A stretch of 50,227 bases of DNA from Betaproteobacteria bacterium (GTDB taxonomy: Bacteria; Pseudomonadota; Gammaproteobacteria; Burkholderiales; Casimicrobiaceae): positions 1 through 50,227 of the forward strand of contig VBCG01000001.1 of assembly GCA_005881895.1 (NCBI GenBank), given 5' to 3'. Shown here one piece after another: positions 14,810 through 31,401 of this stretch. Under the pieces are notes generated by a model. It saw nothing but the letters and a program-made list of their open reading frames with translations. It was not told where the DNA came from and ran no database searches. The position numbers and the translations under genes are program-made. Within the stretch, counting starts at the first letter, position 1. Each line of letters begins with the position of its first letter.

Positions 14810-14882
14810 TAGGGTCAGACTCGACTTTCGTCTGGGATTTGTCAGCACTACGAAGCGCCGATGGAAGTCGAGTCTGACCCTA
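14810..14882. repeat. palindromic repeat, copy B (TAGGGTCAGACTC family)
   Basis: The 73-bp element begins TAGGGTCAGACTCGACTT and ends AAGTCGAGTCTGACCCTA, an 18-bp perfect inverted repeat. The loop shares a segment with copy A (TTGTCAG, then GAAGCG), so the two are homologous over the full length, not only at the arms. On the reverse strand its first three bases are the TAG stop of the LysR gene and its last base touches the ATG of the EamA gene, so it exactly fills the space between them. Confidence 0.88.
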
Positions 14883-15797: not shown

Positions 15798-15798
15798 T

Positions 15799-15812
15799 AG
15801 TTATGGATAACT
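15799..15812. promoter_or_regulatory. candidate LysR operator in the LysR-sulfatase gap
   Basis: AGTTATGGATAACT is an inverted repeat with 6-bp arms and a 2-bp centre, immediately upstream of the LysR start and inside the 88-bp divergent gap. It contains the ATAAC/GTTAT halves expected for an interrupted dyad of a LysR-type protein and is placed where it could repress the regulator and activate the forward cluster. Confidence 0.4.
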
Positions 15813-15885
15813 GAATAGATTGAATTTTACAGCATATCCCGCCGGACCTACGCTATGCGAAATTCCATAGCGCCGGAGGTGCTGG

Positions 15886-17478
15886 ATGAAGGCGGTGTTT
15901 GTTCTGTTCGATTCGCTGTGCCGCAATGCGCTCGGCTGCTACGGCTCGCCGTGGGTGCGCACGCCCAACTTCGACCGATTTGCCCAACGCGGCGTCACCT
16001 TCGACCGGCACTTCGTCGGCAGTCTGCCCTGCATGCCTGCGCGTCGCGACTTGCACACCGGCCGGCTCAACTTCATGCACCGGAGCTGGGGGCCGCTCGA
16101 GCCGTTCGACAATTCGTTCCCCCAGTCGATGTGGCTTGCCGGCATCCACACGCACTTGATCAGCGATCATCTGCATTATTTCGAGGACGGCGGATCCACG
16201 TATCACAATCGCTTTCGCACATGGGATTTTGTCCGCGGTCAGGAATACGACGCGTGGAAGGCGATGGTGCAGCCGCCCGTCGCACGCTTGCGAGAAAAGT
16301 ACGCGGCCAAGCATTATGACTTCGACAGCAGTTGGCAGCACCCGAAGGACATCTACGACGGCAGCTGGAAACGCATCCAGCACGCGATCAACAGCGAGTT
16401 CATGGTCGAGGAAAAGGATCTGCCGCTCGCCCGCTGTTTCGCAGCGGGCTTCGAGTTTCTCGACGTGAATCGGACGGCCGCCCCCTGGTTCCTGATGCTC
16501 GAATGCTTCGATCCGCACGAGCCGTTCCAGGCGCCGGCGCGCTTCAAGGAACAGTACGCGACCGATTGGAACGCGGGCATTCTCGACTGGCCGATCTACG
16601 AGAAGACGACGGACAGCAGTCCCGAAGAGATCGCCGAGATTCGCGCGAACTACGCTGCGCTCGTGGCGGCTTGCGATCACTATTTCGGCCAACTGCTCGA
16701 CTATTTCGATCGGCACGATTTATGGCGCGACACCGCGCTGATCCTCTCCACCGACCACGGCTTCCTGCTCGCCGAACACGATTGGTGGGGCAAAAACCTG
16801 CAGCCGTACTACACGGAAATTTCGCACATTCCGCTGATCGTCCACCATCCGGATTTCGCTAGCCACGCCGGCGAACATCGCAATGCGCTCACGCAAACGA
16901 TGGACCTGATGCCGACGTTCCTGGATTTGTTCGGACTGCCGAAGCCGGCCGAAGTGCGCGCGCACTCCGTCGTGCCGCTGTTGGACGCGGACGCGCCTCA
17001 CCGCGACATCGGCATCTTCGGGATGTTCGGCGGTCCGATCGGCGCAACAGATGGCCGCTACACGTACTATCTCTATCCCGAAGATTTGTACGCCCCCGGC
17101 TTGCATGAATACACGCTGATGCCGATGCACCTGAGCTCGCTTTTCAGTGCGGCGGAGATGAAGACGGCGGTGATGGCGAAGCCCTTCGATTTCACCAAAG
17201 GCATGCCGCTGATGCGCGTCGATGCGTTGAAAGACGCACGCCGCATACCCATCCACGACGACAAGCGCTTCGACTCCGATTTAGGCACGACGCTGTACGA
17301 TCTCGTCACGGACCCGCGCCAAGCGAAGCCCTTTCGGGACGCCGTGCTGGAGCGCCGTTTCCATGCCGGAATTGCGCGCGAGCTACACGCCCACGATGCA
17401 CCCGCCGAAATTTACGGCCGTTATGCCATCCAGATCGAGAAGATGGAGACGGCGATAACGCATGAGGAGGCCCTTTGA
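15886..17478 (+). CDS. sulfatase (formylglycine-dependent family), cytoplasmic
   Basis: The 530-residue protein is a type I sulfatase by motif: the signature C49-M-P-A-R53 in GSLPCMPARRDLHTGR holds the cysteine to be converted to formylglycine; the N-terminal metal aspartate is in VLFDSLCRNALGCYG; D290-H291 in LILSTDHGFLLAEHDWWGKN complete the metal site. There is no signal peptide, so it should act in the cytoplasm on an imported ester. A GGAGGT at 15875-15880 supports the ATG. It overlaps the next gene, a sugar-binding protein, by four bases and leads a cluster containing an importer and iol genes. Phosphonate monoester hydrolases share this signature, so a phospho-diester or phosphonate substrate cannot be excluded. 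No formylglycine-generating enzyme or anSME gene is in the window. Confidence 0.88.
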   Translation: MKAVFVLFDSLCRNALGCYGSPWVRTPNFDRFAQRGVTFDRHFVGSLPCMPARRDLHTGRLNFMHRSWGPLEPFDNSFPQSMWLAGIHTHLISDHLHYFEDGGSTYHNRFRTWDFVRGQEYDAWKAMVQPPVARLREKYAAKHYDFDSSWQHPKDIYDGSWKRIQHAINSEFMVEEKDLPLARCFAAGFEFLDVNRTAAPWFLMLECFDPHEPFQAPARFKEQYATDWNAGILDWPIYEKTTDSSPEEIAEIRANYAALVAACDHYFGQLLDYFDRHDLWRDTALILSTDHGFLLAEHDWWGKNLQPYYTEISHIPLIVHHPDFASHAGEHRNALTQTMDLMPTFLDLFGLPKPAEVRAHSVVPLLDADAPHRDIGIFGMFGGPIGATDGRYTYYLYPEDLYAPGLHEYTLMPMHLSSLFSAAEMKTAVMAKPFDFTKGMPLMRVDALKDARRIPIHDDKRFDSDLGTTLYDLVTDPRQAKPFRDAVLERRFHAGIARELHAHDAPAEIYGRYAIQIEKMETAITHEEAL

Positions 17479-18827
17479 TTCAGCACGCGAGAGTTATCTG
17501 CACATCGTTCCTGGTCGCGGCGCTCGGTTTGTCCGCGGCGGCGATCGCACAGAAGCCGTTCGCCGATGTCGGGAAGCAGCCGCCGATCACGATCCTCATC
17601 GGCTCGACGCCGTGGTATCCGGCGTTCGAGAAAGTCGTCGGCATTTATGAGCAGCAGACCGGCAACAAGATCAAGCTCGATGTCGTGCCGTTCGGGGGAA
17701 TCCTCGAAAAGGCGCGCAACGCAGTGCGGAGCGGTCAAAGTCCCTACGACTTGATGACGCTCGATACGCAGTGGACGATCGAGTTCTACGACGGCGGATT
17801 CTTGTCGCCGTTGAAGGAGATCGATGCCGCTTTCGAGCTGCCGAAGGAAGTGTTGAGCTACGGTGACTCGGGTTATTGGAACGCGCAAAAGCGCTGGCGC
17901 ACGGCCGACGGCGGCAAATTGATGGCGTACACTGTCCTCGGTAACGTGCAGCTTCTCTATTACCGTGGCGATGTGCTGAAGCAGGCCGGCATCGCGCCGC
18001 CGAAGACGTGGGACGACGTTCTCGCGGCGTGCGCGAAGTTGAACGAGCCGCCGAAGATGTACGGATTCGTCGCGCGCGGCGAGAAGGGCAACGGGATACG
18101 CTACGACTGGCAAAGCGTCATGCTGGCCGAGCGCGCGTCGGTCGCGAAGGATCCCGCTGCCGGCGATTACACCGTCACGATCAACAGCCCGCAGGCGAAG
18201 GCGGCGCTCGATCTGTACATCGATTTGCTGAAGCGTTGCGGACCGCCGAACTACGGGTCGCTCGGACAGGGCGACGTGATTCAGCTGCTGGCAACCGGCA
18301 AAGCGGCGATGGGCGACGTCGTCACCGCAGCGTTTGCGAGCTTCGAGGATCCAAACAAGTCGGCCGTGGTCGGCAAGCTCGACACCGTGGCGCTGCCGCG
18401 CGGACGTAGCGGCGCGAATGGCGCCGTAATCGGCAACTGGAACGCTGGCATCCCAAAGAACGCTTCCGACCCGCAAAAGAAAGCGGCGCTCTCGTTTTTG
18501 CGCTGGTTCGTCACCTACGACGCGCAGCACGCGTTCGCGGAGAACGGCGGCATTCCAAACCGCAGCGATGTGTTCACGTCGGATCTCGCGAAACAGCCGC
18601 GCTTCCGCTGGATGCCGGCGTATCTCGAAACGCAGAAGTTTGCGCAGCAGGAGTTGGGTTACGCCGAGGGTGCGCAGGTTGAGCAGGTGCTGGGTTTGCG
18701 GCTCAATCAGGCGTTGATCGGTGAGATGAGCTCGGCGAAAGCGCTCAATACCGCGGCGCGCGAAATCGAAGACATTTTCCGCAAGAGCGGCCGCAAGACC
18801 GGTACATTGCCGCCGTTGCCGGAATAA
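17475..18827 (+). CDS. sugar-type ABC transporter, periplasmic binding protein
   Basis: The 450-residue protein starts at TTG 17475 behind AGGAGG (17465-17470), which lies inside the end of the sulfatase gene. A signal peptide (ICTSFLVAALGLSAAAIA) precedes the mature part. The sequence fits family-1 carbohydrate-binding proteins: KIKLDVVPFGGILEKARNAV, then VLGNVQLLYYRGDVLKQAGI, then NWNAGIPKNASDPQKKAALS. It would deliver the substrate to the permease pair and ATPase encoded next. Downstream lies a repeat (copy C) and then the first permease. Confidence 0.9.
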   Translation: MIQHARVICTSFLVAALGLSAAAIAQKPFADVGKQPPITILIGSTPWYPAFEKVVGIYEQQTGNKIKLDVVPFGGILEKARNAVRSGQSPYDLMTLDTQWTIEFYDGGFLSPLKEIDAAFELPKEVLSYGDSGYWNAQKRWRTADGGKLMAYTVLGNVQLLYYRGDVLKQAGIAPPKTWDDVLAACAKLNEPPKMYGFVARGEKGNGIRYDWQSVMLAERASVAKDPAAGDYTVTINSPQAKAALDLYIDLLKRCGPPNYGSLGQGDVIQLLATGKAAMGDVVTAAFASFEDPNKSAVVGKLDTVALPRGRSGANGAVIGNWNAGIPKNASDPQKKAALSFLRWFVTYDAQHAFAENGGIPNRSDVFTSDLAKQPRFRWMPAYLETQKFAQQELGYAEGAQVEQVLGLRLNQALIGEMSSAKALNTAAREIEDIFRKSGRKTGTLPPLPE

Positions 18828-18828
18828 A

Positions 18829-18966
18829 TAGGGTCAGACTCCGAGTAAAGAGGTCAGACTCCACTTTCACTCGGACCCGGCGAAAAAGCGAAAATGCTGA
18901 TGAAATTGGAGTCTGACCCTATTTCCGCACGGTTCCACTGTGCGTGAGAATTCGAGTCTGACCCTA
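18829..18966. repeat. palindromic repeat, copy C, rearranged, with an extra arm
   Basis: A left arm TAGGGTCAGACTCC starts at 18829, a second partial left arm GGTCAGACTCC lies at 18852, a right arm GGAGTCTGACCCTA ends at 18921, and another right arm GAGTCTGACCCTA spans 18954-18966. The last arm lies inside the first codons of the permease. The complex looks like one intact element plus a partly duplicated or nested second one. It separates the binding-protein gene from the permeases and could attenuate transcription between them. Confidence 0.75.
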
Positions 18967-19833
18967 GTTCTCAATCGCACGTTTCGCCATTGGAGCCTCC
19001 TGCCGGCGGTTGCGTTGTTCGTCGCTCTGACGATTTATCCCGTCGCGAATCTGTTTCGGATGAGCGTCTCGACGATCGAGTTCGCTCAAGCTGGCGAGGC
19101 GTGGACGTTCACGCCGCTGCGCAATCTCGCGCTTTTGCGTGCGGACGAAGTCGTGCCTGCCGCGGTCCGCAACACACTCATCTTCGTCGTTGCGGCGGTC
19201 GCGATCGAGATGGTTCTCGGACTCGCGCTTGCCATCATCGTTGCCGGCGCCGCGCGCGGCAAAGGCCTGATCCGCACGGTGATGATCTTGCCGATCCTCG
19301 TTCCGCCGGTCGCGATCGGCAGCATTTGGAAGCTTCTCTACAACTACGACTTCGGCATCTTCAACCAGACATTGGCGGCGCTGCATTTGCCGCCTGTGAA
19401 TTGGCTCGGATCCACGTCGCTCGCGTTGTGGTCCGTGGTGATCGTCGACGTGTGGCACTGGGTGCCGTTCGTGTTTCTGATTCTGTTTGCGGCGGTCGAG
19501 GCATTGCCCGTCGATGTGCTCGAAGCGGCACGCGTCGACGGTGCCACGCGCTGGCAACTGTTGCGTCGCGTGATGTTGCCCCTGTTGCGCCCGGCGATCG
19601 TCGTGGCGCTTCTGTTCCGGACGATTCTCGCGTTCAAGGTGTTCGACGAAGTGTTTTTGTTGACCTCCGGCGGACCCGGCACGTCGACCGAGCTCGTGAC
19701 GCTGCATCTCTACAAAGTATTCTTCGACCAGAACCAGCTGGGCTATGGTTCGCTTCTCTCGCTCGCGCTGATCGCGGCGATAGTTGCATTTTTGCTGGTG
19801 GGCCGGCAAGCGGTGCGGCTCGCGCGCCCGTGA
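18940..19833 (+). CDS. sugar-type ABC transporter permease 1 (MalF-like)
   Basis: The 297-residue protein has six hydrophobic segments and the cytoplasmic EAA loop (EAARVDGATRWQLLRRVMLP) that docks on the ATPase. The start used is GTG 18940. Residues SSLTL at positions 5-9 are encoded by an arm of repeat copy C, so the N-terminus may be a repeat-derived extension; no better start is visible before the first helix (LLPAVALFVALTIYPVANLF). It overlaps permease 2 by three bases. Part of the importer with the binding protein upstream and the ATPase downstream. Confidence 0.88.
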   Translation: MRENSSLTLVLNRTFRHWSLLPAVALFVALTIYPVANLFRMSVSTIEFAQAGEAWTFTPLRNLALLRADEVVPAAVRNTLIFVVAAVAIEMVLGLALAIIVAGAARGKGLIRTVMILPILVPPVAIGSIWKLLYNYDFGIFNQTLAALHLPPVNWLGSTSLALWSVVIVDVWHWVPFVFLILFAAVEALPVDVLEAARVDGATRWQLLRRVMLPLLRPAIVVALLFRTILAFKVFDEVFLLTSGGPGTSTELVTLHLYKVFFDQNQLGYGSLLSLALIAAIVAFLLVGRQAVRLARP

Positions 19834-20711
19834 TGAATACGTCGGCCACCGCACTTTCGCTCCCGCGTTCCGCGACGACGACGCCGGCTACCGCGGTCGG
19901 TGGCGGGTGGATTGGCACGACGCTGCTTGCGCTCGCAGTCGCGGCGGTGCTCGGACCGTTCGCATGGATCCTGACCGCGTCGTTCAAATACCAGATCGCG
20001 ATCTACTCGGGCGAATGGCCATTCACGCCGACCCTGTCGAATTACGCCGAAGTTCTGTTCGGCCGGCGCTCCGATTTCGTCGGCAATGTCGTCAACAGCC
20101 TGATCGTCGCGTCGGCCAGCACCGCGCTCGTGCTGGTTGTGGGAACGCTCGCCGCGTATTCGCTGCAGCGTTTTCGTTGGCCGGTGTGGGTCAGCGCGGG
20201 ATTTCTCGGGTGGACCCTTGTCTTCCATATGATTCCGGTGATGACGCTGATCGGTCCATGGTACGTGGCGTTTCGCGAGCTCGGACTCTACGACACACGC
20301 ATTGCGTTGATCCTGACGCATGTCACGATCAATTTGCCGATGACTGTATGGCTGATGCGCGCGTTCTTTCGCGAGTTACCGCCCGAGATCGAGGAAGCGG
20401 CGCTGGTCGACGGCTGCCGCCCGCTCGAAGCGTTTCGCCGGGTGACGCTGCCGCTCGTCATCCCTGGCCTGATTGCGTCAGGCATCCTGGCGTTCATTTT
20501 CAGCTGGAACGAATTTCCCGTGGCGTTGAGCCTGACGTCGCGCGATCTCGCGACGGTGCCAGTCGCGATTGCCCGGTTCGCGCAACAATACGAGATCCAG
20601 CACAGCCAGATGGCGGCGGCATCGATTGTCTCGACGATCCCCGCGGTGATCCTGATGGCGCTCGGCCAACGCTTTATCGTCCGCGGCCTGACGCTCGGCG
20701 CGGTGAAATAG
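19833..20711 (+). CDS. sugar-type ABC transporter permease 2 (MalG-like)
   Basis: The 292-residue protein begins MNTSATALSLPRSATT at the ATG overlapping the stop of permease 1. It has six hydrophobic segments and an EAA-type loop (EEAALVDGCRPLEAFRRVTL, then PLVIPG), and a typical C-terminus with SWNEFPVALSL. It forms the heterodimeric membrane channel with permease 1. Confidence 0.92.
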   Translation: MNTSATALSLPRSATTTPATAVGGGWIGTTLLALAVAAVLGPFAWILTASFKYQIAIYSGEWPFTPTLSNYAEVLFGRRSDFVGNVVNSLIVASASTALVLVVGTLAAYSLQRFRWPVWVSAGFLGWTLVFHMIPVMTLIGPWYVAFRELGLYDTRIALILTHVTINLPMTVWLMRAFFRELPPEIEEAALVDGCRPLEAFRRVTLPLVIPGLIASGILAFIFSWNEFPVALSLTSRDLATVPVAIARFAQQYEIQHSQMAAASIVSTIPAVILMALGQRFIVRGLTLGAVK

Positions 20712-20722
20712 GAAGCCACACG

Positions 20723-21799
20723 ATGGCGGCCGTCAACATTCGCAACGTCGGCAAGCAATTCGATTCGGTCGTCGTGATGCGCAACATCGATCTCGACGTA
20801 GCCGACGGCGAATTCATCGTGCTGGTCGGTGCATCGGGCTGCGGGAAATCGACGTTGTTGCGGATGATCGCCGGCCTCGAGCCCATCACATCGGGTGAGA
20901 TTGCGATCGGGGGACGGCGCGTCAACGAGCTCGAGCCCCGGGAGCGCGATGTCGCGATGGTGTTTCAAACCTACGCTCTCTATCCGCACCTCGACGTGCG
21001 GGAGAACATGAGCTTCTCGTTACGCCTGCGCAAGCGAGCGCCGGCCGAGATCGACCGGCTGGTCGAAGCGACCGCGACGACGCTCGACTTGCAGCCATTG
21101 CTCGCTCGACTTCCGCGCGCGCTGTCCGGCGGCCAGCGCCAACGCGTCGCGATGGGCCGGGCAATCGTTCGGCATCCGCAGCTGTTTCTGTTCGACGAGC
21201 CGCTGTCCAATCTCGACGCGAAGCTGCGGGTCGCGATGCGCACCGAGATTCGCGCGCTGCATCAGCGATTACATGCAACATCGATCTACGTGACGCACGA
21301 TCAAGTCGAGGCGATGACGATGGCGGACCGCATGGTAGTGATGAACGCTGGGCGCATTGAGCAGATCGGCCGGCCGCTCGACGTGTACGACCATCCCGCG
21401 ACGCTGTATGTCGCGCAATTCATCGGGTCGCCGGCGATCAACGTGTGGACCGGCGTTGTGGAAGCATCGTCGGAAGGCGCATCGTTGCGGACCGACCATG
21501 GCCTGCGACTGGCGTTGCCGGCTTCGGATGTCACGGCCGGCACGCGGCTTGCTGCTGCGTTTCGACCCGAGCACGTCGTCCTCGACGGCGTCGGGCCACT
21601 CGAGGCGCGGGTCAGCGTCGTCGAGCCGCTTGGACCGGAAACGTATGTGTACCTCGACGTGGGCGGAACTCGCGTGTGCGCCCGCGTTGACCGCACGCAG
21701 ACCCTCGCGCCCGGGGACCCTGTACGCTGCGACGTGGCGGCGAGCGCCATCCATGTGTTCGATGCATCCAATGGAGCGCGGCTGTCCACGACTTCGTGA
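20723..21799 (+). CDS. sugar-type ABC transporter ATPase (MalK/UgpC-like)
   Basis: The 358-residue protein has Walker A GASGCGKST at ~residues 37-45, the Q-loop in FQTYALYPH, the signature LSGGQRQRVAMGRAIV, Walker B LFLFDEP and the switch histidine in YVTHDQVEAMT. A C-terminal OB/TOBE-type regulatory domain (residues ~240-350) places it in the carbohydrate CUT1 group, often called UgpC or MsmX. It powers import by the preceding permeases. It is followed, 11 bp later, by the first inositol catabolic gene. Confidence 0.93.
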   Translation: MAAVNIRNVGKQFDSVVVMRNIDLDVADGEFIVLVGASGCGKSTLLRMIAGLEPITSGEIAIGGRRVNELEPRERDVAMVFQTYALYPHLDVRENMSFSLRLRKRAPAEIDRLVEATATTLDLQPLLARLPRALSGGQRQRVAMGRAIVRHPQLFLFDEPLSNLDAKLRVAMRTEIRALHQRLHATSIYVTHDQVEAMTMADRMVVMNAGRIEQIGRPLDVYDHPATLYVAQFIGSPAINVWTGVVEASSEGASLRTDHGLRLALPASDVTAGTRLAAAFRPEHVVLDGVGPLEARVSVVEPLGPETYVYLDVGGTRVCARVDRTQTLAPGDPVRCDVAASAIHVFDASNGARLSTTS

Positions 21800-21810
21800 T
21801 CTAATAATTC

Positions 21811-23748
21811 ATGCGCAATCAAGTCCGTTTCGCCCCCGGTCGCTCGCTCGACGTCGTCTGCCTCGGACGCTTCGGCGTCGACTTCTACGCGCAGCAGATC
21901 GGCGCGCGATTGGAGGACGTGACGAGCTTCGCGAAATATCTCGGCGGCTCCTCGGCGAATACCGCGTTTGGTTGCGCGCGGCTCGGGCTCAAGGCCGGGT
22001 TGATCTCGCGCGTCGGCGACGACGCGATGGGCCGCTTCCTCGTCGAGACGATCGCCCGCGAAGGCTGCGACGTCAGCCATGTCGGTATCGACCCCGCACG
22101 ATTGACGGCGGCTGTCGTGCTGGGCATCAAGGACAAGGACACGTTTCCGCTCATCTTCCTGCGCGAGAACTGCGCGGACATGGCGATCGGCGAAACCGAA
22201 ATCGACGAAACGTACATCGCCCAAAGCCGCGCGCTGCTTATCACCGGCACGCATTTCTCGACCGAATACATCGATCGGATCGGCAATCTCGCGCTCGACC
22301 GCGCGCGCAAGAACGACGTAAGGACAATCCTCGACATCGATTATCGGCCCGTGCTGTGGGGGCTCACCAAGCGCGGGGATGGCGAAACGCGTTACATTGA
22401 ATCGGACACCGTAACGGCGCATCTGCAGCGCCTGCTGCCGAAGTTCGATCTCGTCATCGGCACGATCGAGGAATTCAACATCGCGGGCGGCAGCACCGAC
22501 ATCATGCAATCGCTTTCCGCGGTGCGACGCCATACCAAGGGAGTGCTGGTCGTCAAGCGCGGTCCGATGGGTTGCGCGGTTATCGACGGCGAAATTCCGC
22601 GCTCGCTCGACGACGCGTTCAACGGCAGCGGTGTTGAAGTCGAAGTATTGAACGTGCTGGGCGCCGGCGATGCGTTCTCCGCCGGATTCTTGTCCGGCTG
22701 GGTGCGTGGCGAGGACTACGACGCGTGTGCGCGATACGCCAACGCCTGTGGCGCACTCGTCGTGTCGCGTCACGGCTGCGCGCCGGCAATGCCGACGCGG
22801 ATCGAGCTCGATTATTTTCTCGCCAACGCGCAGGCGATTCCGCGTCCCGACCAGGATGCGACGCTGACGCGACTGCATCGTGTCACCGCTCCGCGGACGC
22901 CGCGTAAGGAGCTGTTCGTCTTCGCGTTCGATCACCGCAACCAATTTTTCGATTTGGCGCAACAAGCGGGTGTTGACGAAGCGCGCATTTCACGGCTTAA
23001 GCAGTTGTTCGTCGAGGCCGTTGCCGAAACGGAGACGGCGCGTGGTCTCTCGGGGCGCGTCGGGATACTCTGCGACGACCGTTACGGTCAGGATGCGCTC
23101 AATGCCGCGACGGGTCGTGGATGGTGGATCGGACGGCCGGTGGAGTTGCCAGGCTCGAATCCCGTGGTGTTCGACCGCGGACGATCGATCGGCACGACGC
23201 TGCTTCCATGGCCGCAGGAGCACGTCGTCAAATGTCTGGTGCAATTCCATCCGGACGACGCGATCGATAATCGCCTTGAACAGGAGGCACAGATCAAGGC
23301 GCTGTACGATTCGCTGCAGGCGAGCGGCCATGAGCTCCTGCTCGAGATCATTCCGCCGAAGTCGTTGCCGCGCCAGCCCGATACCGTCCATCGTGCGCTG
23401 AAACGGCTCTACAACCTGGACATCTATCCCGAGTGGTGGAAGCTCGAGCCGATGGACGCCGCGCAATGGCGTGCGATCGACGCGTTGATTGGCGAACGCG
23501 ACCCTTATTGCCGTGGTGTCGTGCTGCTCGGATTGAACGCGAGCGCAGACGTGCTCGCGGCGGGATTCGGCAACGCCCGCTCGAGCACGACGTGCTGCGG
23601 CTTCGCTGTCGGTCGTACGATTTTCCACGAGCCCACGCGGCAATGGCTTGCGGGCGCGATCGACGATGCGACGCTCAAGCAAGCAATTCGCCGCAACTTC
23701 GAGGGACTGATCGACGCGTGGCAAAACGCGCGCCGCACTGACCGATGA
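21811..23748 (+). CDS. iolC: 5-dehydro-2-deoxygluconokinase fused to a DUF2090 domain
   Basis: The 645-residue protein has an N-terminal PfkB sugar kinase (~1-325) with KYLGGSSANTAFGCARLGLK near the start and the catalytic NVLGAGDAFSAGFLSG motif at about residues 281-296. Residues ~340-640 are a DUF2090 domain (ELFVFAFDHRNQFFDL onward), a TIM-barrel relative of aldolases. The IolC-DUF2090 fusion is well known in proteobacterial inositol loci. The kinase phosphorylates 5-dehydro-2-deoxygluconate, and the DUF2090 part is thought to cleave the product to malonic semialdehyde and dihydroxyacetone phosphate; the latter role is inferred. The stop TGA is the first three bases of the 86-bp repeat. 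Confidence 0.92.
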   Translation: MRNQVRFAPGRSLDVVCLGRFGVDFYAQQIGARLEDVTSFAKYLGGSSANTAFGCARLGLKAGLISRVGDDAMGRFLVETIAREGCDVSHVGIDPARLTAAVVLGIKDKDTFPLIFLRENCADMAIGETEIDETYIAQSRALLITGTHFSTEYIDRIGNLALDRARKNDVRTILDIDYRPVLWGLTKRGDGETRYIESDTVTAHLQRLLPKFDLVIGTIEEFNIAGGSTDIMQSLSAVRRHTKGVLVVKRGPMGCAVIDGEIPRSLDDAFNGSGVEVEVLNVLGAGDAFSAGFLSGWVRGEDYDACARYANACGALVVSRHGCAPAMPTRIELDYFLANAQAIPRPDQDATLTRLHRVTAPRTPRKELFVFAFDHRNQFFDLAQQAGVDEARISRLKQLFVEAVAETETARGLSGRVGILCDDRYGQDALNAATGRGWWIGRPVELPGSNPVVFDRGRSIGTTLLPWPQEHVVKCLVQFHPDDAIDNRLEQEAQIKALYDSLQASGHELLLEIIPPKSLPRQPDTVHRALKRLYNLDIYPEWWKLEPMDAAQWRAIDALIGERDPYCRGVVLLGLNASADVLAAGFGNARSSTTCCGFAVGRTIFHEPTRQWLAGAIDDATLKQAIRRNFEGLIDAWQNARRTDR

Positions 23749-23917
23749 GCACCGCAGGGCCGTCCCAAGGTGCGAATTACTCCCCCTCAGGGGGCAGCGC
23801 AGCGGCGACAGCCGCAAGCGTGGGGGTCCTGTGAGCACCGCAGGGCCGTCCCAAGGTGCGAATTACTCCCCCTCGGGGGGCAGCGCAGCGGCGACAGCCG
23901 CAAGCGTGGGGGTCCTG
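23746..23917. repeat. 86-bp tandem repeat, two copies, between iolC and iolD
   Basis: Two head-to-tail units (23746-23831 and 23832-23917) differ at one base (CCTCAGGGGG against CCTCGGGGGG). Each begins TGAGCACCGCAGGGCCGTCC and ends CCGCAAGCGTGGGGGTCCTG. The first unit starts on the iolC stop and the second ends on the first base of the iolD GTG. Inside, CCCCCTCAGGGGG and GCGGCGACAGCCGC can form small hairpins. A related single copy lies at 28399. Elements with CCGCAAGCGTGGGGG are common between genes of Burkholderiales, from general knowledge. Confidence 0.9.
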
Positions 23918-25767
23918 TGAGCAAAACGATACGATTGACGACGGCGCAGGCGCTGGTCCGCTATCTCGTGGCGTTGCGGGTCGACGACGCAAGTGGTGAA
24001 CACTTATTCGGCGGCGTTTTCGCGATCTTCGGCCATGGCAATGTCGCGGGCATCGGCGAAGCGCTGTATGAGATGCGAAACGAATTGCCGACGTATCGCG
24101 CGCACAACGAGCAGGCGATGGCGCACGCCGCGGTTGCTTACGCTAAAGCGCACATGCGCCGGCGCATGATGGCGTGCACGACATCGATCGGGCCGGGGGC
24201 AACCAATCTCGTGACGGCGGGGGCGCTCGCGCATGTGAATCGCTTGCCGGTGCTCTTTCTTCCCGGCGATATCTTCATCACGCGTGCGCCTGATCCGGTG
24301 CTGCAGCAGGTCGAAGATTTTCACGACGGCACCGTTTCGGCCAACGATTGCTTCAAGCCGGTATCGCGTTATTTCGATCGCATCGCGCACCCTGCACAAT
24401 TGCTGAATGCGCTGCCGCGCGCCGTCAGCGTCTTGACCGATCCCGCGTTGTGCGGTCCTGTCACGCTCGCGCTGCCCCAGGACGTGCAGACGATGGCGTA
24501 CGATTTTCCCGAAGATTTGTTCGCACCTCGGCACGTTCGTTTCGCGGCACTCCCACCGGTAGATGCGGACGTCGTAACCGTTGCGGCGCTCTTGCGGTCT
24601 GCGAAGCGCCCGTTGATTGTCGCAGGCGGCGGCATGCTCTATGGATTCGCGAGCGACGCACTGCGCACGTTCGCCGAAGCGCACGGCGTCCCCGTCGCGG
24701 AAACGCAGGCCGGAAAGGGTGCGCTCCCGTGGGACCATCGGTTGCAGCAAGGCTCCATCGGTGTGACTGGGTCTCCGGCCGCCAACGGACTCGCGCGCGA
24801 GTGCGACATCGTGATCGCAGTCGGCACGCGGCTGTCGGATTTCACGACCGGATCGCACTCGATGTTTGGCGGGGCGGCGCTCGTCAATCTCAATGTCAAT
24901 CCGCTGGACGCACAGAGGTGGCGGGGCGTCGAGCTTCGCGCCGATGCGCGGCTCGGCCTCGAAGCGTTGTCACAAGCGCTGTCGGGCTGGCGTGCCGAAC
25001 CTGCGTGGACGCGCCGCGCCGAGGAAGCCGGCAGCCAATGGCGTGACGACATTGCGCGCATCACCGGTCAGCGGGAAGTCGATCTGCCGTATGAAGGTGA
25101 CGTCATCGGCGCGGTGCAGCGCTCATCGCCCGACTCGACGATGAACGATATCGTTGTCGGCGCCGCGGGAACGTTGCCGGCGGAGCTGCACAAACTGTGG
25201 CGGACCACGACACCCGGCGGCTATCACATGGAATACGGCTATTCGTGCATGGGTTACGAGATCGCCGGCGGCCTCGGTGTGAAAATGGCAAAGCCTGACC
25301 GCGAGGTTATCGTGATCGTCGGCGACGGCAGCTATCTGATGCTTAATTCCGAGATCGCGACATCGGTCATGCTCGATAAAAAGCTGATCGTCGTTGTTCT
25401 TGACAACTCGGGTTTCGGTTGCATCAACCGCTTGCAGCAGGCATGCGGTAGCGTGCCGTTCAACAATCTGCTCACCGATTGCGTACAGGGACCGCTTGGC
25501 GTGCCAAGGATTGATTTTGCGGCCCATGCCGCCTCGCTCGGCGCGCTCTCGGAGAACGTCAAGACGATTCCGGAGCTCGAAGTGGCGCTCGCCCGCGCTC
25601 GCGCTGCGGACCGCACCTACGTCATCGCGATCGAAACCGATCCCAACAAGACAACGGTCGAAGGCGGATGCTGGTGGGAGGTTGCGGTGCCCGAAGTATC
25701 GGAGCGCGCTGAAGTCCGCCGTGCGCGCGAGCAGTACGAAAACGACAAAAAGCAGCAAAAGCCATGA
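23917..25767 (+). CDS. iolD: 3D-(3,5/4)-trihydroxycyclohexane-1,2-dione hydrolase
   Basis: The 616-residue protein is a thiamine-diphosphate enzyme of the IolD type. The activating glutamate is in YRAHNEQAMAHAAVAYAKA, and the ThDP motif GDGSYLMLNSEI with its following N is near residues 468-480, then VVVLDNSGFGCINRLQQACG, typical of IolD. It opens the ring of trihydroxycyclohexanedione to 5-deoxyglucuronate in the cytoplasm. The GTG at 23917 is preferred over the longer frame from 23770, since that extension is translated repeat sequence. It overlaps iolE by four bases. Confidence 0.93.
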   Translation: MSKTIRLTTAQALVRYLVALRVDDASGEHLFGGVFAIFGHGNVAGIGEALYEMRNELPTYRAHNEQAMAHAAVAYAKAHMRRRMMACTTSIGPGATNLVTAGALAHVNRLPVLFLPGDIFITRAPDPVLQQVEDFHDGTVSANDCFKPVSRYFDRIAHPAQLLNALPRAVSVLTDPALCGPVTLALPQDVQTMAYDFPEDLFAPRHVRFAALPPVDADVVTVAALLRSAKRPLIVAGGGMLYGFASDALRTFAEAHGVPVAETQAGKGALPWDHRLQQGSIGVTGSPAANGLARECDIVIAVGTRLSDFTTGSHSMFGGAALVNLNVNPLDAQRWRGVELRADARLGLEALSQALSGWRAEPAWTRRAEEAGSQWRDDIARITGQREVDLPYEGDVIGAVQRSSPDSTMNDIVVGAAGTLPAELHKLWRTTTPGGYHMEYGYSCMGYEIAGGLGVKMAKPDREVIVIVGDGSYLMLNSEIATSVMLDKKLIVVVLDNSGFGCINRLQQACGSVPFNNLLTDCVQGPLGVPRIDFAAHAASLGALSENVKTIPELEVALARARAADRTYVIAIETDPNKTTVEGGCWWEVAVPEVSERAEVRRAREQYENDKKQQKP

Positions 25768-26657
25768 ACGTCCGTATTGGCATCAATCCGATTTCGTGGA
25801 GCAACGACGATCTGCCGTCGCTCGGCGGCGAGACGCCCCTCGAAGTCGCGTTGTCCGAGGGTAAGGCCATCGGCTACCAGGGCTTCGAGCTCGGCAACAA
25901 GTTTCCGCGCGAGCCCGAAGCGTTGCGGGACGTCTTGGCGCGTCATGATCTGGCGCTCGTGTCTGGTTGGTATTCGGGTCAACTCGCGCGCCGTTCGGTC
26001 GACGAGGAAATCGCTGCCGTGGAGCCGCACTTGCAACTGCTCGCGGCGAACGGTGCTGACGTGATGGTCTACGGCGAAGTCGCCGACAGCACCCAGGGCG
26101 CGAGCGTGCCGCTGTACAAGCGCCCGCGCTTTTTCCGTGACGGGCAGTGGCGGGAATACGGCGACAAGTTGACGGCGTTCGCGCGCTACACGTTGAAGCA
26201 TGGCGTGCGCGTCGGGTATCACCACCACATGGGTGCGTACGTCGAGACGCCGGCCGACGTCGATCGCCTGATGTCGCTCGTCGGCGACGAAGTCGGTCTG
26301 CTGTTCGACAGCGGCCACATGACGTTTGCCGGCGGAGACGCCGTTGCGATGCTCGAGAAGCATGTCGCACGCGTCTGTCATGTCCATTGCAAGGACGTGC
26401 GGCCCGCCGTCATCAAGTTCGCGCGCAATCGCAACTGGAGCTTTCTCGAAGCGGTGATCAACGGCGCCTTCACGGTGCCAGGCGACGGCGCCATCCATTT
26501 CGAATCGCTGCTCGCTATTCTGCGCAAGAATCACTACCGTGGCTGGTTGGTCGTGGAAGCCGAGCAGGATCCCGCCGTTGCACCGGCGTTTCGCTACGCG
26601 GAGATGGGCTTTCGACATCTGCGGCGGATCGTCTCAAACGTGGGGGTGCAATCATGA
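25764..26657 (+). CDS. iolE: myo-inosose-2 dehydratase
   Basis: The 297-residue TIM-barrel protein begins MNVRIGINPISWSNDDLPSL, the standard start of IolE proteins. Metal-binding and catalytic segments are present: GVRVGYHHHMGAYVET, LLFDSGHMTFAGGD and VCHVHCKDVRP, ending in GWLVVEAEQDP. It removes water from 2-keto-myo-inositol to give the trihydroxycyclohexanedione used by IolD. Overlaps of four bases on both sides (iolD and iolB) make tight translational coupling likely. Confidence 0.93.
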   Translation: MNVRIGINPISWSNDDLPSLGGETPLEVALSEGKAIGYQGFELGNKFPREPEALRDVLARHDLALVSGWYSGQLARRSVDEEIAAVEPHLQLLAANGADVMVYGEVADSTQGASVPLYKRPRFFRDGQWREYGDKLTAFARYTLKHGVRVGYHHHMGAYVETPADVDRLMSLVGDEVGLLFDSGHMTFAGGDAVAMLEKHVARVCHVHCKDVRPAVIKFARNRNWSFLEAVINGAFTVPGDGAIHFESLLAILRKNHYRGWLVVEAEQDPAVAPAFRYAEMGFRHLRRIVSNVGVQS

Positions 26658-27451
26658 GCCTGTTGGTCAAGGCGCGGCGCGATGGCCGCGAAATCGTCAA
26701 CGTGACGCCGCGCTCAGCGGGATGGAAATATGTCGGCTTTGCCGCGTATCGTTTGAGCGCGGGCGATTCCGTTACGCTACAAAAGCCAGACGACGAGCTG
26801 TGCATCATCGTTCTCGCCGGCAAAGTAACCGTGAAGCACGGCAGTGAAACGTGGCGCGACATCGGCGAGCGCAGCGATGTGTTCGAAGATCGAGCCCCGT
26901 ATGCCATCTATCTTCCTGCCGGCGACGAAGTCGTCGTGACTGCGCATACGCGAGCCGAAATCGGTGTCGCAAGTGCGCCGGCCGCCAACGCACCCTTGCC
27001 GGGGCGGTTGATCGAGCCGTCGGCGATGAAGCGCTTCGCACGCGGGACGGGGCTGAATGAGCGCTTCGTCTGCGACATCCTGCCGCAAACCGAGCCCGCC
27101 ACGCATTTGCTCGTCGTCGAAGTTCGCACGCCCAGCGGTCATTCGTCGAGTTATCCGCCGCATAAGCATGATTCCGATAATCTGCCGCAGGAGAGCGCGC
27201 TCGAAGAGACGTACTACCACCGCTTGCAGCCGGCGCAGGGCTTCGCGTTTCAGCGCGTGTACACCGACGATCGTTCGCTCGACGAGTCGCTGGCCGTGGA
27301 GGATCACGACGTCGTACTGGTTCCGCGCGGTTATCATCCCGTCGTCGTTCCGTTCGGCTACGAGTCGTACTATTTGAACGTGATGGCCGGACCCAAGCGC
27401 GAATGGCATTTCAAGAACGACCCTGCGCATGAATGGATGCTGCAGCGATGA
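26654..27451 (+). CDS. iolB: 5-deoxy-glucuronate isomerase
   Basis: The 265-residue protein is a double cupin of the IolB/KduI family. Metal-binding residues stand in SSYPPHKHD, LEETYYHR and VPRGYHPVVV, and the ending YLNVMAGPKREWHFKNDPAH is diagnostic. It isomerises 5-deoxyglucuronate to 5-dehydro-2-deoxygluconate, the substrate of IolC. The ATG at 26654 overlaps the iolE stop. Confidence 0.93.
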   Translation: MSLLVKARRDGREIVNVTPRSAGWKYVGFAAYRLSAGDSVTLQKPDDELCIIVLAGKVTVKHGSETWRDIGERSDVFEDRAPYAIYLPAGDEVVVTAHTRAEIGVASAPAANAPLPGRLIEPSAMKRFARGTGLNERFVCDILPQTEPATHLLVVEVRTPSGHSSSYPPHKHDSDNLPQESALEETYYHRLQPAQGFAFQRVYTDDRSLDESLAVEDHDVVLVPRGYHPVVVPFGYESYYLNVMAGPKREWHFKNDPAHEWMLQR

Positions 27452-27470
27452 AGAGAGGGAACAGGGAACA

Positions 27471-28401
27471 ATGATTGAGGTCGCCCTATTCGGCGCCGGC
27501 CGGATCGGCAAGATCCACGCCGGCAACGTCGTCCGCCAGCCTGGCGTCACGCTCAAATATGTGGTCGATGTCGATTCCGCTGCTGCCGCCGCGCTCGCGA
27601 AGCAACACGGCGCGAAAGTCGCTTCCGCCGACACCGTCTTCGCTGACGGGTCGATCGATGCGGTCATCATCGCATCGTCGACCGATACGCACGCCGATTT
27701 GATTCAACGCGGGGCCGCCGCGGGTAAAGCGATCTTCTGCGAAAAGCCGGTCGATCTGGATCTCGATCGTGCGCGCACGTGTGCTCAGGCGGTCGCTCGC
27801 GCCGGCGTGGCATGTCTGATCGGCTTTCAGCGCCGCTACGATCCCACGTTCGCGGCGTTGAAGGCGCGTATCGACGAAGGCGAGATTGGCGATCCCGAAA
27901 TGCTGATCGTGACGAGCCGCGACCCCGGGGCGCCGCCGGTCGACTACATCAAGCGCTCCGGCGGCATCTTCAAGGACATGCTGATTCACGACTTCGACAT
28001 CTTCCGCTGGATACTTGACGACGAAGCGGATACGGTTTATGCGACGGGAAGCTGCATTACCGATCCGGCAATCGAAGCGGCGGGCGACATCGATGCAACC
28101 GCCGTAACGGTTCGAACGAAGCGCGGCCGGCTCGCGCAGATCAACACGATTCGCCGCGCCGTGTACGGCTACGATCAACGCTTCGAAGTGATCGGCAGCA
28201 AAGGGATGCTGCAGGCGGGGAACCACAAGCCGACCGAAGTGGTGGCGTGGAACGCGAGCAGCATCAGCAGCGATAAACCGGAGCACTTCTTTCTCGAGCG
28301 CTATCGCGCTGCGCACGTCGATCGACGACGGCGTCAGAGCGCTCGCGCTGGCCGACGCGGCGACCCGATCGTGGCGCGAGAAACGAGTCGTGGAACTATG
28401 A
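27471..28401 (+). pseudogene. iolG: inositol 2-dehydrogenase (Gfo/Idh/MocA), broken by a small internal deletion
   Basis: From ATG 27471 the first ~280 residues are a normal inositol dehydrogenase: VALFGAGRIGKIHAGNV Rossmann loop, EKPVDLDLDRA with the conserved Lys, and GGIFKDMLIHDFDIFRW with the catalytic Asp/His pair. After FFLERYRAA (near 28313) the frame changes: the family's C-terminus TSIDDGVRALALADAATRSW continues in another frame and ends VVEL-TGA at 28399-28401. Relatives have about 18-20 more residues between these points, so ~55-60 bp are missing and the frame is shifted. The open frame as it stands runs to 28472 through repeat sequence with a foreign tail of about 45 residues. A second dehydrogenase gene downstream could compensate. 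Confidence 0.85.
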
Positions 28402-28489
28402 GCGTCGCCGGGCCGTCCCTAGGCGCGAATTGCTCCCCCGTTGGGGGCAGAGGGCAGAGCGTAGCGGCGTAAGCCGCAAGCGTGGGGGT
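28399..28489. repeat. diverged single copy of the iolC-iolD repeat
   Basis: The segment starts TGAGCGTCGCCGGGCCGTCC and ends CCGCAAGCGTGGGGGT, matching the 86-bp unit at 23746 with several substitutions and a small insertion (GGCAGAGGGCAGAGCGTAGC region). It again begins at an ancestral stop codon (iolG TGA) and is followed within 13 bp by the GTG of the next gene. CCCCCGTTGGGGG forms a short hairpin. Confidence 0.8.
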
Positions 28490-28501
28490 ACACCGATCAA
28501 A

Positions 28502-29521
28502 GTGAAAGACGCGCTGCGCGTCGGCATCGCCGGCTTGGGTCGGATGGGCCGGCGACACGCCGAGAATCTCGCGCGTCGCGTAACCGGCGCGGCGCTCGTC
28601 GCCGCTTGCAGTCCGGTGGACGAAGAGCGCGCATGGGCCAAGCAGTCGCTCGGCGTCCAGCACACGTTTTCGGAGTACGCGACGATGCTTGCGCGTCCCG
28701 ACGTCGACGCCGTTTTTCTCGTGACGCCGACGACGCTGCACGCGCAGCAGATCATTGATGCGCTGCACGCGGGCAAGCACGTGTTTTCGGAAAAGCCGCT
28801 GTCGCTGGACCTCGATCAATGCCTTCGGGTTGAGCGCGAAGCGAAGCGTTTCCCAAACCTCAAGGTAATGATCGGATTCGTCCGCCGCTTCGACGCGAGC
28901 TACTGCGATGCCCACGATCGTATTGCACAAGGCGCGATCGGCACGCCGTTCATGGTCCGCTCGCAGACGCTCGACAAGCACGACCCAAGCGGATTCTTCC
29001 TGCGCTTTGCGGCGACGAGCGGCGGCATCTTCCTCGACATGAGCGTCCACGACATCGACACCGCACGCTGGCTGCTCGGCAGTCCGGCACCGATCCGCGC
29101 CTATGCGACCGGCACCGTCGCCATTCACGAAGGCCTCCGCCAGTGGCAGGACGTCGACAACGGCGCGGCGCTGTGCGAGTTCGCGGGCGGGAAGATCGCA
29201 TACTTCTGCGCATCGAGGACGATGGCGCACGGATTCGAGGCGTCGACCGAGATCGTCGGGACGCAAGGACGATTGACGGTCTGCAGCAATCCACGCGCCA
29301 ATCTTCTCGATATCGCGGATGCGCACGGCGTGCGCAACGAATGCACGCCGACATTCTATGAACGATTCGAAGACGCGTTCCTGCGCGAAGATCAGGCATT
29401 CGTCGATGTCGTTCTTGACGATCGACCGCCGCCGCTTAGCTTGCACGATGCAACCGAGGCGACGCGCATTGGCATCGCGCTGCGGGAGTCGTTGCTGACC
29501 AAGCGATTGATCGAACTTTAG
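28502..29521 (+). CDS. second Gfo/Idh/MocA-family dehydrogenase, probably inositol dehydrogenase
   Basis: The 339-residue protein starts at GTG 28502, just behind the repeat; the longer frame from 28430 would translate repeat sequence. It has an NAD-binding N-terminal domain (VGIAGLGRMGRRHAENLA), the EKP motif (HVFSEKPLSLDLDQ) and SGGIFLDMSVHDIDTARWLL with the catalytic His-Asp pattern. It is clearly different from the broken iolG and may act on another inositol isomer (scyllo- or chiro-) or on an inositol ether or ester, or may now provide the only dehydrogenase of the cluster. Confidence 0.88.
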   Translation: MKDALRVGIAGLGRMGRRHAENLARRVTGAALVAACSPVDEERAWAKQSLGVQHTFSEYATMLARPDVDAVFLVTPTTLHAQQIIDALHAGKHVFSEKPLSLDLDQCLRVEREAKRFPNLKVMIGFVRRFDASYCDAHDRIAQGAIGTPFMVRSQTLDKHDPSGFFLRFAATSGGIFLDMSVHDIDTARWLLGSPAPIRAYATGTVAIHEGLRQWQDVDNGAALCEFAGGKIAYFCASRTMAHGFEASTEIVGTQGRLTVCSNPRANLLDIADAHGVRNECTPTFYERFEDAFLREDQAFVDVVLDDRPPPLSLHDATEATRIGIALRESLLTKRLIEL

Positions 29522-29560
29522 CGAGACCGGCCACAGAACCGCCTTAAAAAGGAGAACCGC

Positions 29561-30192
29561 ATGTTTCGCCTTAGCTTTTGCGTCGCCTCGACGCTTTTTG
29601 TCATGGTTTCGGCACCGCTGCACGCGCAAGGGCAGGTTAATGTCATCTGCAGCGTGCCGGTACCCTGGTGCGAAGCGCTCGCCGCGCAATTTACGAAGGA
29701 GACCGGCATCAAGGTCGGCCTCACGCAAAAGGGTTCCGGAGAATCGATGGCGCAAGTCGCGGCAGAAAAGGCGAATCCCAAGTACGACGTTTGGTACGCA
29801 GGCACCGGCGATCCCCATTTGCAGGCGGCGGAGCTCGGGCTGACCGAGGAATACAAATCCCCGATGCTCGCAGAGCTCTACGATTGGGCCGCCCGGCAGG
29901 CGGAGCAATCGAAGTTCCGCACGGATCGATGAGCGTCATCAAAGGCGCGCGCAATCTCGACAACGCGAAAAAATTCTACGACTGGGCGTTGACGCCGGCC
30001 GCGCAGAAAATCGACGGCAATCTCGGGAACTTCCAGACGCCGTCGAACAAGACGACGCGAATACCCGCAGGAGCACTCAAGATGAGCGACCTGAAGCTCA
30101 TCGCTTACGACTTCGCCAAATATGGCAGCGCCACCGAGCGGAAGCGCATACTCGAAAAGTGGGACAAGGACGTCTACGCGCTGCCGCGGTGA
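29561..30192 (+). pseudogene. orphan solute-binding protein, third paralog, with a large internal deletion
   Basis: An ATG at 29561 behind AAGGAG begins a signal peptide (FRLSFCVASTLFVMVSAPLH) and then the same mature protein as the gene at 11606 (PWCEALAAQFTKETGIKVGL, YDVWYAGTGDPHLQA). After SKFRT near 29925 the frame hits TGA at 29930-29932; the C-terminal part resumes from MSVIKGARNLDNAKKFYDWA to the family end YALPR. Compared with the paralog about 131 residues (some 394 bp) are missing and the frame is shifted. Both ends are otherwise well preserved, so the event is recent or an assembly collapse. Confidence 0.88.
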
Positions 30193-30226
30193 TCCGCGCC
30201 GTCAATGGTCGGACCGGGCACGAGGC

Positions 30227-30487
30227 TTATTTGGAGCGTGGAGGCCACCACGACAAGAGTGCCGGTACCTCGTCCGGCGGCGATATCGCTTCATCGTTGG
30301 CGCTGCCGCGCTCGAGCAGCGCGCAGTTTTCATCGAGCTCCGTCGCCTGCGCGGACGATGGCTCTCCGTCGACGATGGCATGTTCGACGTTCATTTCCTC
30401 AACATCGAAACTTTCCTGCGCCGGCGGCGCGCGCCGCATCCTTCGCTTGCGCATTTTCGGTGTACGGTGAAACTGCGGTATCGGCAT
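30227..30487 (-). CDS. small acidic protein of unknown function
   Basis: A reverse frame gives about 86 residues from MPIPQFHRTPKMRKRRMRRA followed by an acidic middle (ESFDVEEMNVEHAIVDGEP). The basic start and acidic body recall, with opposite polarity, the low-complexity protein encoded at 11091-11486, and both lie beside members of the orphan binding-protein family. No domain is recognised. The forward frames of this stretch give nothing better, but a non-coding spacer is also possible. Confidence 0.4.
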   Translation of the reverse strand: MPIPQFHRTPKMRKRRMRRAPPAQESFDVEEMNVEHAIVDGEPSSAQATELDENCALLERGSANDEAISPPDEVPALLSWWPPRSK

Positions 30488-30603
30488 GCATCCCTCCGTC
30501 GTTCCCAAGTGTGCACGCGACCGTTGCAATCTTTACATGAACGGTCGCAGTTTCGGCTGGTGAGCGAGCCGATCCGACCCTTGCGAGCAGAATCCATGCC
30601 GTC

Positions 30604-31401
30604 ATGAATGATCGCTATACATTTGCCTGCACGATCGCGCGTAAGGCCGGCGCGCTCGCGCTTGATTTTTGGAATCGGCGCGACGAGCTCGTCATCGAGC
30701 TCAAAGGTCCGGGCGATTTTGTGAGCGTTGCCGATCGCGAGGTTGAAAATCTCCTCCGTCGCGAGCTCGCCGCGGCGTTTCCCGATGATCGATTCCTTGG
30801 TGAAGAAACCGCGCCGGATTTCGCCGGACCATTCGATCGTTCCTGGGTCGTCGATCCGATAGACGGCACGCACAATTTTCTGCGCGGCATGCCCTACTGG
30901 AACGTCGCGATCGCGTATGTGGAAAACGCGCGCGCGCAAATTGGCGTCGTCTTCGATCCAACGCAGAACGAGCTTTATCACGCGATCCGCGGCGGCGGCG
31001 CGTGGTGCGATTCGCGTTCGGGTTCGAAAAGGCTGCACACCGCAACGGCCGCCACATTAGCGGGCGCCTACGTCGCGTTCGGCCATCACGATCGAGCGCC
31101 CGATTACGAGTATCTCGAGATCCGGCAGCGGATGATGGATGCCGGCGTGGCGATGCGCAACTTCGGTTCGGCGGCGTTGCAGCTCGCGCACGTCGCGGCC
31201 GGACGGCTCGATGGATTCATCGAGCTGCAGCTATCGATCTGGGATGCGATCGGCGGACTGGCGCTGGTCGAGGAAGCGGGTGGCTACACGGCGCCGTTCT
31301 CGCCGTCACGAGCGACGGAAAAAGTTGCGTGCCTCGCCTGCGCACCCGGCATCGCGGCCGCCTTCCTCGACTTGACCGGCGCTGGACGTCGCGCGAAGTA
31401 A
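30604..31401 (+). CDS. inositol monophosphatase family protein
   Basis: The 265-residue protein has the family's metal-binding motifs in order: FLGEETA with the acidic pair, WVVDPIDGTHNFLRGMPYWN and LSIWDAIGGLALVEEAGGYT. Members are Li-sensitive, Mg-dependent phosphatases on inositol phosphates, or on 3'-phosphoadenosine 5'-phosphate (CysQ) or other sugar phosphates. At the end of a sulfatase-importer-iol cluster both readings are attractive: release of inositol from its phosphate, or removal of PAP made during sulfur metabolism. It lies 412 bp after the broken binding protein, so it may have its own promoter. Confidence 0.88.
   Translation: MNDRYTFACTIARKAGALALDFWNRRDELVIELKGPGDFVSVADREVENLLRRELAAAFPDDRFLGEETAPDFAGPFDRSWVVDPIDGTHNFLRGMPYWNVAIAYVENARAQIGVVFDPTQNELYHAIRGGGAWCDSRSGSKRLHTATAATLAGAYVAFGHHDRAPDYEYLEIRQRMMDAGVAMRNFGSAALQLAHVAAGRLDGFIELQLSIWDAIGGLALVEEAGGYTAPFSPSRATEKVACLACAPGIAAAFLDLTGAGRRAK

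Follow-up and report, generated by a model that had tools for sequence, protein, structure and literature searches.

A cytoplasmic sulfatase and CUT1-type importer, probably moved horizontally, stand directly before an inositol catabolism operon in Casimicrobiaceae

Sulfate esters make up a large share of soil organic sulfur, and to our knowledge few defined small sulfate esters are recognised as bacterial nutrients. In the ats/sft system of Pseudomonas, the LysR-type regulator SftR, the ATP-binding cassette (ABC) importer AtsRBC and AtsA bring together LysR control, import and a cytoplasmic sulfatase; the importer is of the sulfonate/taurine type, and the system serves to scavenge sulfur, no carbon pathway being known to be linked to it. 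The smo cluster, whose binding protein SmoF is a CUT1 binder for an anionic sulfur-bearing sugar, is not known to include a sulfatase step. Here, we describe a locus in which elements of this kind adjoin the genes for inositol catabolism (iol). It lies in a stretch of 50,227 nucleotides (the window) from a Betaproteobacteria bacterium of the family Casimicrobiaceae (contig VBCG01000001.1, assembly GCA_005881895.1), one contig of a 4.29-Mb draft genome that is 96% complete. A LysR regulator gene, a cytoplasmic sulfatase gene and the genes for a CUT1 importer form one module, which leads straight into iolC-DUF2090, iolD, iolE, iolB and iolG (Table 1). As in the ats/sft system, the sulfatase thus stands beside a LysR gene and an ABC importer, and as in the smo cluster, the solute-binding protein (SBP) is of the CUT1 type and has a similar fold; the ligand of SmoF is a sulfonate, whereas a sulfate ester is proposed here.

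A sulfatase whose product enters a linked catabolic pathway is known from choline-O-sulfate utilisation in Sinorhizobium meliloti, in which an enzyme of the same superfamily, BetC, acts on a small sulfate ester; the sulfatase passage of PMC3557214 concerns BetC and its linkage to the bet genes. The spacings of D, C, D, H and K in the window sulfatase resemble those between D14, C54, D296, H297 and K309 of choline sulfatase (PMC5870055). The BetC system differs in being linked to the bet genes, whereas the window sulfatase is linked to iol genes and a CUT1 importer, reaches only 85.6 of the 433 bits required by the choline-sulfatase model TIGR03417 and is 15-17% identical to the 6fny chains in a fold search. 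Bacterial iol clusters with dedicated transporters have been surveyed, and these share the iolC-D-E-B core of the window while transporters and regulators vary; the word sulfatase has 0 occurrences in the main text of that survey (PMC9430895). In our literature searches, which left subscription journals largely uncovered so that novelty is unproven, neither inositol sulfate as a bacterial nutrient nor a sulfatase-fed iol system was found in the sources reached, and inositol hexasulfate appeared mostly in phytase papers. We conclude that the association of module and iol genes is real, narrow and probably mobile, and that an importer-linked cytoplasmic sulfatase feeding a catabolic pathway is already known in kind, the link to iol probably being new.

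The association, whose restriction to this contig would have refuted the sequence-only reading of this DNA, is seen in three genomes among those examined, all of one family. At E<=1e-80, the sulfatase occurs in five of the 64 genomes of the family, and in three of these five, belonging to two genera, the module adjoins iolC (in what follows, L numbers denote loci or stretches and G numbers genomes; the locus of G013 is L001, and G034 is the same as G065). Compared with G020 (66% complete, with the site in view), the window carries its module precisely at the EamA-iolC junction, a site that is empty in seven (G020 included) of the 18 iolC stretches of relatives counted for site type out of 20 fetched (L120, L121, L128, L129, L131, L132 and L133). 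G127, from the other genus, carries IMPase (inositol monophosphatase family) and LysR genes on one strand, followed on the other by the genes for the sulfatase (which has an assembly gap), SBP, MalF and MalG and by iolC-D-E-B-G, with about 120 bp between MalG and iolC; the G127 module sits between the IMPase gene and iolC, two genes that adjoin in L124 and L125. Two insertion sites are occupied, EamA|iolC in the window and IMPase|iolC in G127. In G013 the module is inverted: iolC follows LysR on the minus strand, about 20 bp from the LysR end, and the sulfatase operon is divergent. Neither the G013 module nor that of G127 was found to include a counterpart of the UgpC-type ATPase gene of the window. 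A fourth sulfatase of the family, in G006, is a relative at 48-50% in another setting.

In the iol tree, the window, G020, G013 and G017 split from all others (100/100), with seven more genomes of the same genus outside this group, and G127 stands with L124 and L125, weakly (94.8/72). In the module tree, by contrast, the window and G127 stand together, apart from G013 and all remaining sequences (99.8/100). Because the two sets of gene trees conflict, the module has probably moved horizontally, and it was probably placed repeatedly in front of iolC. A single transfer that carried iolC along with the module was considered and is unsupported by sliding identity, in which iolC has no overall closeness to G127; short one-sided stretches of recombination could still have occurred. 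Since two sites are filled and the third placement is inverted, a functional link is supported, and the association of module and iol genes, with three genomes, two genera and conflicting trees, looks non-random. In relatives, other transporters stand before iolC, namely a TRAP (tripartite ATP-independent periplasmic) permease with a binding-protein gene upstream (scanned in L127; L126 has a TRAP permease there that is similar by its start) and, in the order-level relative L136, a rhizopine-like ABC importer scoring 237 of 420 bits, below the model cut-off. With other transporters in the same position, the slot before iolC appears to be a site where uptake genes are accommodated, the sulfatase module being one option. 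The idea that a phosphate-ester importer with a phnS2-like SBP was lost in exchange for the module was dropped: two fuller phnS2-like genes remain upstream (about 11654-12628 and 12767-13801), and only the downstream copy is plainly broken. Genes for phnS2-like SBPs also occur in relatives, some with permease and ATPase genes.

The sulfatase passes the Pfam Sulfatase model (119.7 bits, cut-off 25) and combines a C/S-x-P-x-R motif with the alkaline-phosphatase-superfamily fold, as type I (formylglycine) sulfatases do; it scores below the cut-offs of the arylsulfatase models. Residues D9, C49, R53, H211, D290, H291 and K303 are invariant in all 24 sequences of the alignment A3 (L088, L089 and L093, present in the alignment A1, were left out of it), and C49 reaches 97% conservation or more across 89 rows, 84 of them distinct. 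As the metal-site Asp is residue 9 and about five open codons precede the start (an open frame of 535 codons for a protein of 530 residues), no space is left for a signal peptide, and the enzyme is firmly predicted to be cytoplasmic, as the sequence-only reading had argued. Among 87 relatives with the upstream stop visible, 25 open codons or fewer precede the homologous start in 50, and more than 25 in 37; all relatives are likely to be cytoplasmic too. The AlphaFold model of the sulfatase has a mean pLDDT of 82, and its nearest folds in a Foldseek search are the dimeric sulfatase 4upl, carbohydrate sulfatases and phosphonate monoester hydrolases (PMHs), at 14-20% identity and a TM score of about 0.6, values at which a model of this kind names no substrate. 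For the binding protein (model pLDDT 91, CUT1 type), the fold search gave 5iai, MalE3, a trehalose/maltose binder, 4rya and 5ci5 as the closest solved structures, at 22-24% identity; 5iai and 4rya we take to be polyol binders. SmoF follows from rank 8, with a TM score of 0.75 by query and 19-20% identity. A close homologue with a known ligand was not among the proteins returned by the fold search, the best solved binding protein being 24% identical.

We propose that the cell takes up a sulfate ester and removes its sulfate, that the product enters inositol catabolism, and that the module in front of the iol operon serves this end, a proposal to which we give an even chance. A LysR-sulfatase-CUT1 importer module would have been moved horizontally and set directly before an iol operon. 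Through the binding protein and permeases, a small sulfate ester would reach the cytoplasm, where the sulfatase would strip off the sulfate, a possible source of sulfur for assimilation. The polyol left over, inositol or a close derivative, would first be oxidised, by either IolG or the second dehydrogenase, and then pass through IolE, IolD, IolB and IolC. The iol genes would now also be driven by the LysR-sulfatase promoter region, in a transcript presumably shared with the module. This arrangement suggests that these bacteria naturally feed on a sulfated inositol or a closely similar compound, inositol sulfate itself being only the simplest guess. The IMPase, to which the sequence-only reading had given a part in stripping the imported substrate, finds no support in that role: its gene is found in the iol locus of relatives without the sulfatase, and it scores below the cut-offs of the HisN and SuhB-like models (the best curated matches). 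As a component of the older iol locus, it may have a substrate other than that of the module.

A number of observations weigh against this proposal, many of them from the sulfatase family at large. A scan of 84,980 species genomes gave 184 sulfatase relatives, of which the best 80 were examined with up to 10 kb of flank viewed, many flanks ending at contig ends. The common unit is a divergent LysR gene, a sulfatase gene and CUT1 ABC genes, and 79 of the 80 loci have no iol gene in the viewed flanks, the sole exception here being L001. Eight annotated regions were read out of 406 plasmid records matching the sulfatase, and none of the eight has iol genes. TTT (tripartite tricarboxylate transporter) and PTS (phosphotransferase system) importers also stand beside family sulfatases (L082 and L087; L089, with an anaerobic sulfatase maturase), and what the family members seem to share is a cytoplasmic sulfatase tied to import, the downstream context being varied. 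At E<=1e-150, iolD is lacking in 22 of 52 sulfatase genomes and present in 30, and outside the Betaproteobacteria (by taxon labels assigned by hand) it is equally common without ABC genes (10 of 12) and with them (17 of 21), so that a general need of sulfatase genomes for inositol catabolism is unsupported. An IolC-DUF2090 marker, surveyed for 50 of the 80 loci, chosen mostly from the nearest distinct genomes with L070 added, was found in 21 of 50 genomes and missed some with iolD, which makes iolD the better marker. In favour of the proposal, all nine genomes with the nearest sulfatases have iolD, in G063 as a partial gene below the cut-off. Within the family, the sulfatase of G034 (76%) lies at a contig edge with iolC on another contig beside the IMPase gene, G017 has no module and is the sister of G013 in the iol tree, and iolG is broken in the window assembly. 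The tree conflict may also reflect ancestral copies and differential loss, the three placements may be dependent on one another, and recombination with shared flanks or rearrangement of one ancestral insertion is possible. We regard as possible, if doubtful, a reading in which the module serves general sulfate-ester scavenging or sugar-sulfate uptake, its substrate is unrelated to inositol, and it settled before iolC for a useful, strong and regulated operon front or at an insertion-prone site. Besides the loci without iol genes and the varying importer types, the REP (repetitive extragenic palindromic)-like palindromes at the left edge of the module (seven arm matches with at most three mismatches, 0.07 expected) and the variable gene content upstream of iolC across the family speak for it, whereas three iolC-touching placements in two genera and two orientations exceed what random landing would lead one to expect. 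In the earlier claim that an imported substrate is desulfated and fed to the iol pathway, the coupling of sulfatase and importer and the apparently non-random iol link hold up, and it is the identity of that substrate as inositol sulfate that suffers from the loci, plasmid regions and genomes without iol genes.

The enzyme might also be a PMH-type phosphodiesterase or phosphonate monoester hydrolase, with the UgpC-like importer taking up a glycerophospho-inositol-like diester for cleavage and subsequent dephosphorylation by the IMPase, which we think very unlikely. Its best NCBIfam match is indeed the PehA/phosphonate monoester hydrolase model NF045661, far below the cut-off (141.7 of 900 bits), the fold and profile searches both place PMHs among the closest matches, and the locus includes a UgpC-type ATPase and an IMPase. 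However, the binding protein barely matches the UgpB model (22.7 of 411 bits), and a formylglycine-generating enzyme (FGE) or anaerobic sulfatase-maturating enzyme (anSME) is kept near the gene in relatives (FGE in the flank of nine of the 80 loci, anSME beside one), an argument tempered by the fact that PMHs can use formylglycine too. In a low-confidence stretch of the profile alignment, H95 falls on the His of the sulfatase 4upl and on the Tyr of the PMH 4upk, with D94 where 4upl has Lys, which is weak evidence for a sulfatase. The maturases also bear on a further and similarly improbable explanation, namely that the sulfatase is unmatured in this organism and the module is a mere importer of free or modified polyols for the iol pathway. 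The sequence-only reading had noted that an FGE gene is lacking from the window, and at E<=1e-25 for an FGE query and E<=1e-30 for the anSME model TIGR03942 neither enzyme was found in the whole draft genome, where a gap is possible; the single PF03781 match there is EgtB (TIGR03440, 586 bits, cut-off 360). This is a further point against our proposal. The nine draft genomes whose sulfatases are closest to that of the window (G000, G013, G061-G065, G088 and G110) yielded neither maturase, whereas 32 of the remaining 43 sulfatase genomes have one (31 FGE, 1 anSME only) and 11 have neither, a difference of p = 4.6e-5 in a Fisher test that ignores shared ancestry and with the active-site cysteines checked in some of the 31 FGEs. 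PF03781 was searched in all nine genomes and matched in eight; compared with a true FGE, seven of these matches either have no FGE-type cysteine pair or fail to align over its position, and the eighth (G034/G065, L150) has no alignment to a true FGE and an EgtB-like sequence, while the cysteine pair is present in all four control FGEs. On the other side, the C49 motif is intact in all eight nearest-clade sulfatases, of nine, that were read, and the seven of them included in A3 also retain the remaining active-site residues, conservation for which an inactive enzyme would have no use, and a maturase gene may be missing from draft assemblies. Another maturation route or draft gaps could each possibly account for the pattern in the nearest clade.

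If our proposal is taken to its full extent, a natural inositol sulfate or sulfated derivative would be used by way of a LysR-sulfatase-importer cassette able to transfer and to join iol operons already in place, and the Cys-type clade would in addition be activated by a route other than FGE or anSME; we consider this combination unlikely. The cassette, found several times before iol genes, points to one small sulfate-ester nutrient, and the binding protein and the sulfatase are small, soluble proteins that could be used for finding the substrate. Should the absence of FGE and anSME across the nearest relatives hold in complete genomes, other routes of sulfatase maturation would become directly testable.

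With regard to gene content, the sequence-only reading had placed the sulfatase, importer, iol, dehydrogenase and IMPase genes in one row on one strand, and all of them are present in that order, including the overlap of the sulfatase stop and the SBP start, which amounts to 4 nt (TTGA). Its iol assignments were borne out by the four curated cut-offs that IolC-DUF2090, IolD, IolE and IolB pass, these being the genes that together mark an iol cluster. It had omitted the divergent LysR gene, the loss of frame in iolG and the phnS2-like remnant. The ATPase gene ends 11 bp before iolC. A divergent LysR gene beside the sulfatase is also found in many relatives, and LysR is likely to be the controller of the module, with the region between the two genes as its probable control region, judging from sequence. 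About 30 bp are missing from iolG relative to L122 at the point of frame loss, and the last 45 or so residues are off-frame.

Table 1. Coordinates in the window of the module, the iol genes and neighbouring features.
Feature	Position	Strand	Remarks
REP-like palindrome, AGGGTCAGACTCGACTT arms	14811..14881	.	between EamA and LysR, left edge of inserted module; junction sequence
LysR-family regulator	14880..15797	-	Pfam HTH_1 and LysR_substrate; divergent from sulfatase
LysR-sulfatase intergenic region	15798..15885	.	block GAATTTTACAG also in L001 and L165
Cytoplasmic Cys-type sulfatase, C49-M-P-A-R, without signal peptide	15886..17478	+	
CUT1-type SBP, signal peptide by eye	17475..18827	+	
MalF-type permease	18940..19833	+	
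MalG-type permease	19833..20711	+	
UgpC/MalK-type ATPase	20723..21799	+	above UgpC subfamily cut-off
iolC fused to DUF2090 (5-dehydro-2-deoxygluconokinase and aldolase)	21811..23748	+	NF047869, 1034 bits, cut-off 600
86-bp unit, two tandem copies	23746..23917	+	between iolC and iolD
iolD, start by eye	23917..25767	+	TIGR04377, 892 bits, cut-off 715
iolE	25764..26657	+	TIGR04379, 396 bits, cut-off 290
iolB	26654..27451	+	TIGR04378, 327 bits, cut-off 205
iolG, frame lost at about 28320	27471..28472	+	TIGR04380, 374 bits (above cut-off), matched to 288 of 330
Second Gfo/Idh/MocA dehydrogenase, IolG-like	28502..29521	+	312 bits against the iolG cut-off of 355
Remains of phnS2-like SBP gene, internal deletion	29561..30192	+	between second dehydrogenase and IMPase
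IMPase-family phosphatase	30604..31401	+	PF00459

Further REP-like palindromes with AGGGTCAGACTCGACTT arms lie at 13800-13873 and, between the SBP and the first permease, at 18850-18920. A third, weaker and diverged copy of the 86-bp unit is found at the iolG end (28399-28484), and a sequence similar to the unit lies in L120 between iolG and the second dehydrogenase. IMPase-family genes also occur near the sulfatase in loci without iol genes (L008, 841-1590; L009, 18283-19050; L012, 18075-18896). The flanks of 14 of the 80 loci contain a DUF4432 gene (L017, L018, L021, L022, L023, L027, L029, L034, L035, L040, L046, L057, L071 and L080), which we take to encode an aldose-epimerase-like protein, and such neighbours may hint at a sugar-like substrate. 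The sulfatase tree comprises 85 rows, 84 of them different; it excludes repeat copies of a single locus as well as loci, such as L003 and L004, that were filtered out for a stop, unknown residues or short length. In this tree the sulfatase of L053, from a record titled Akkermansia muciniphila, groups with those of Comamonadaceae, which suggests that its contig is probably misbinned.

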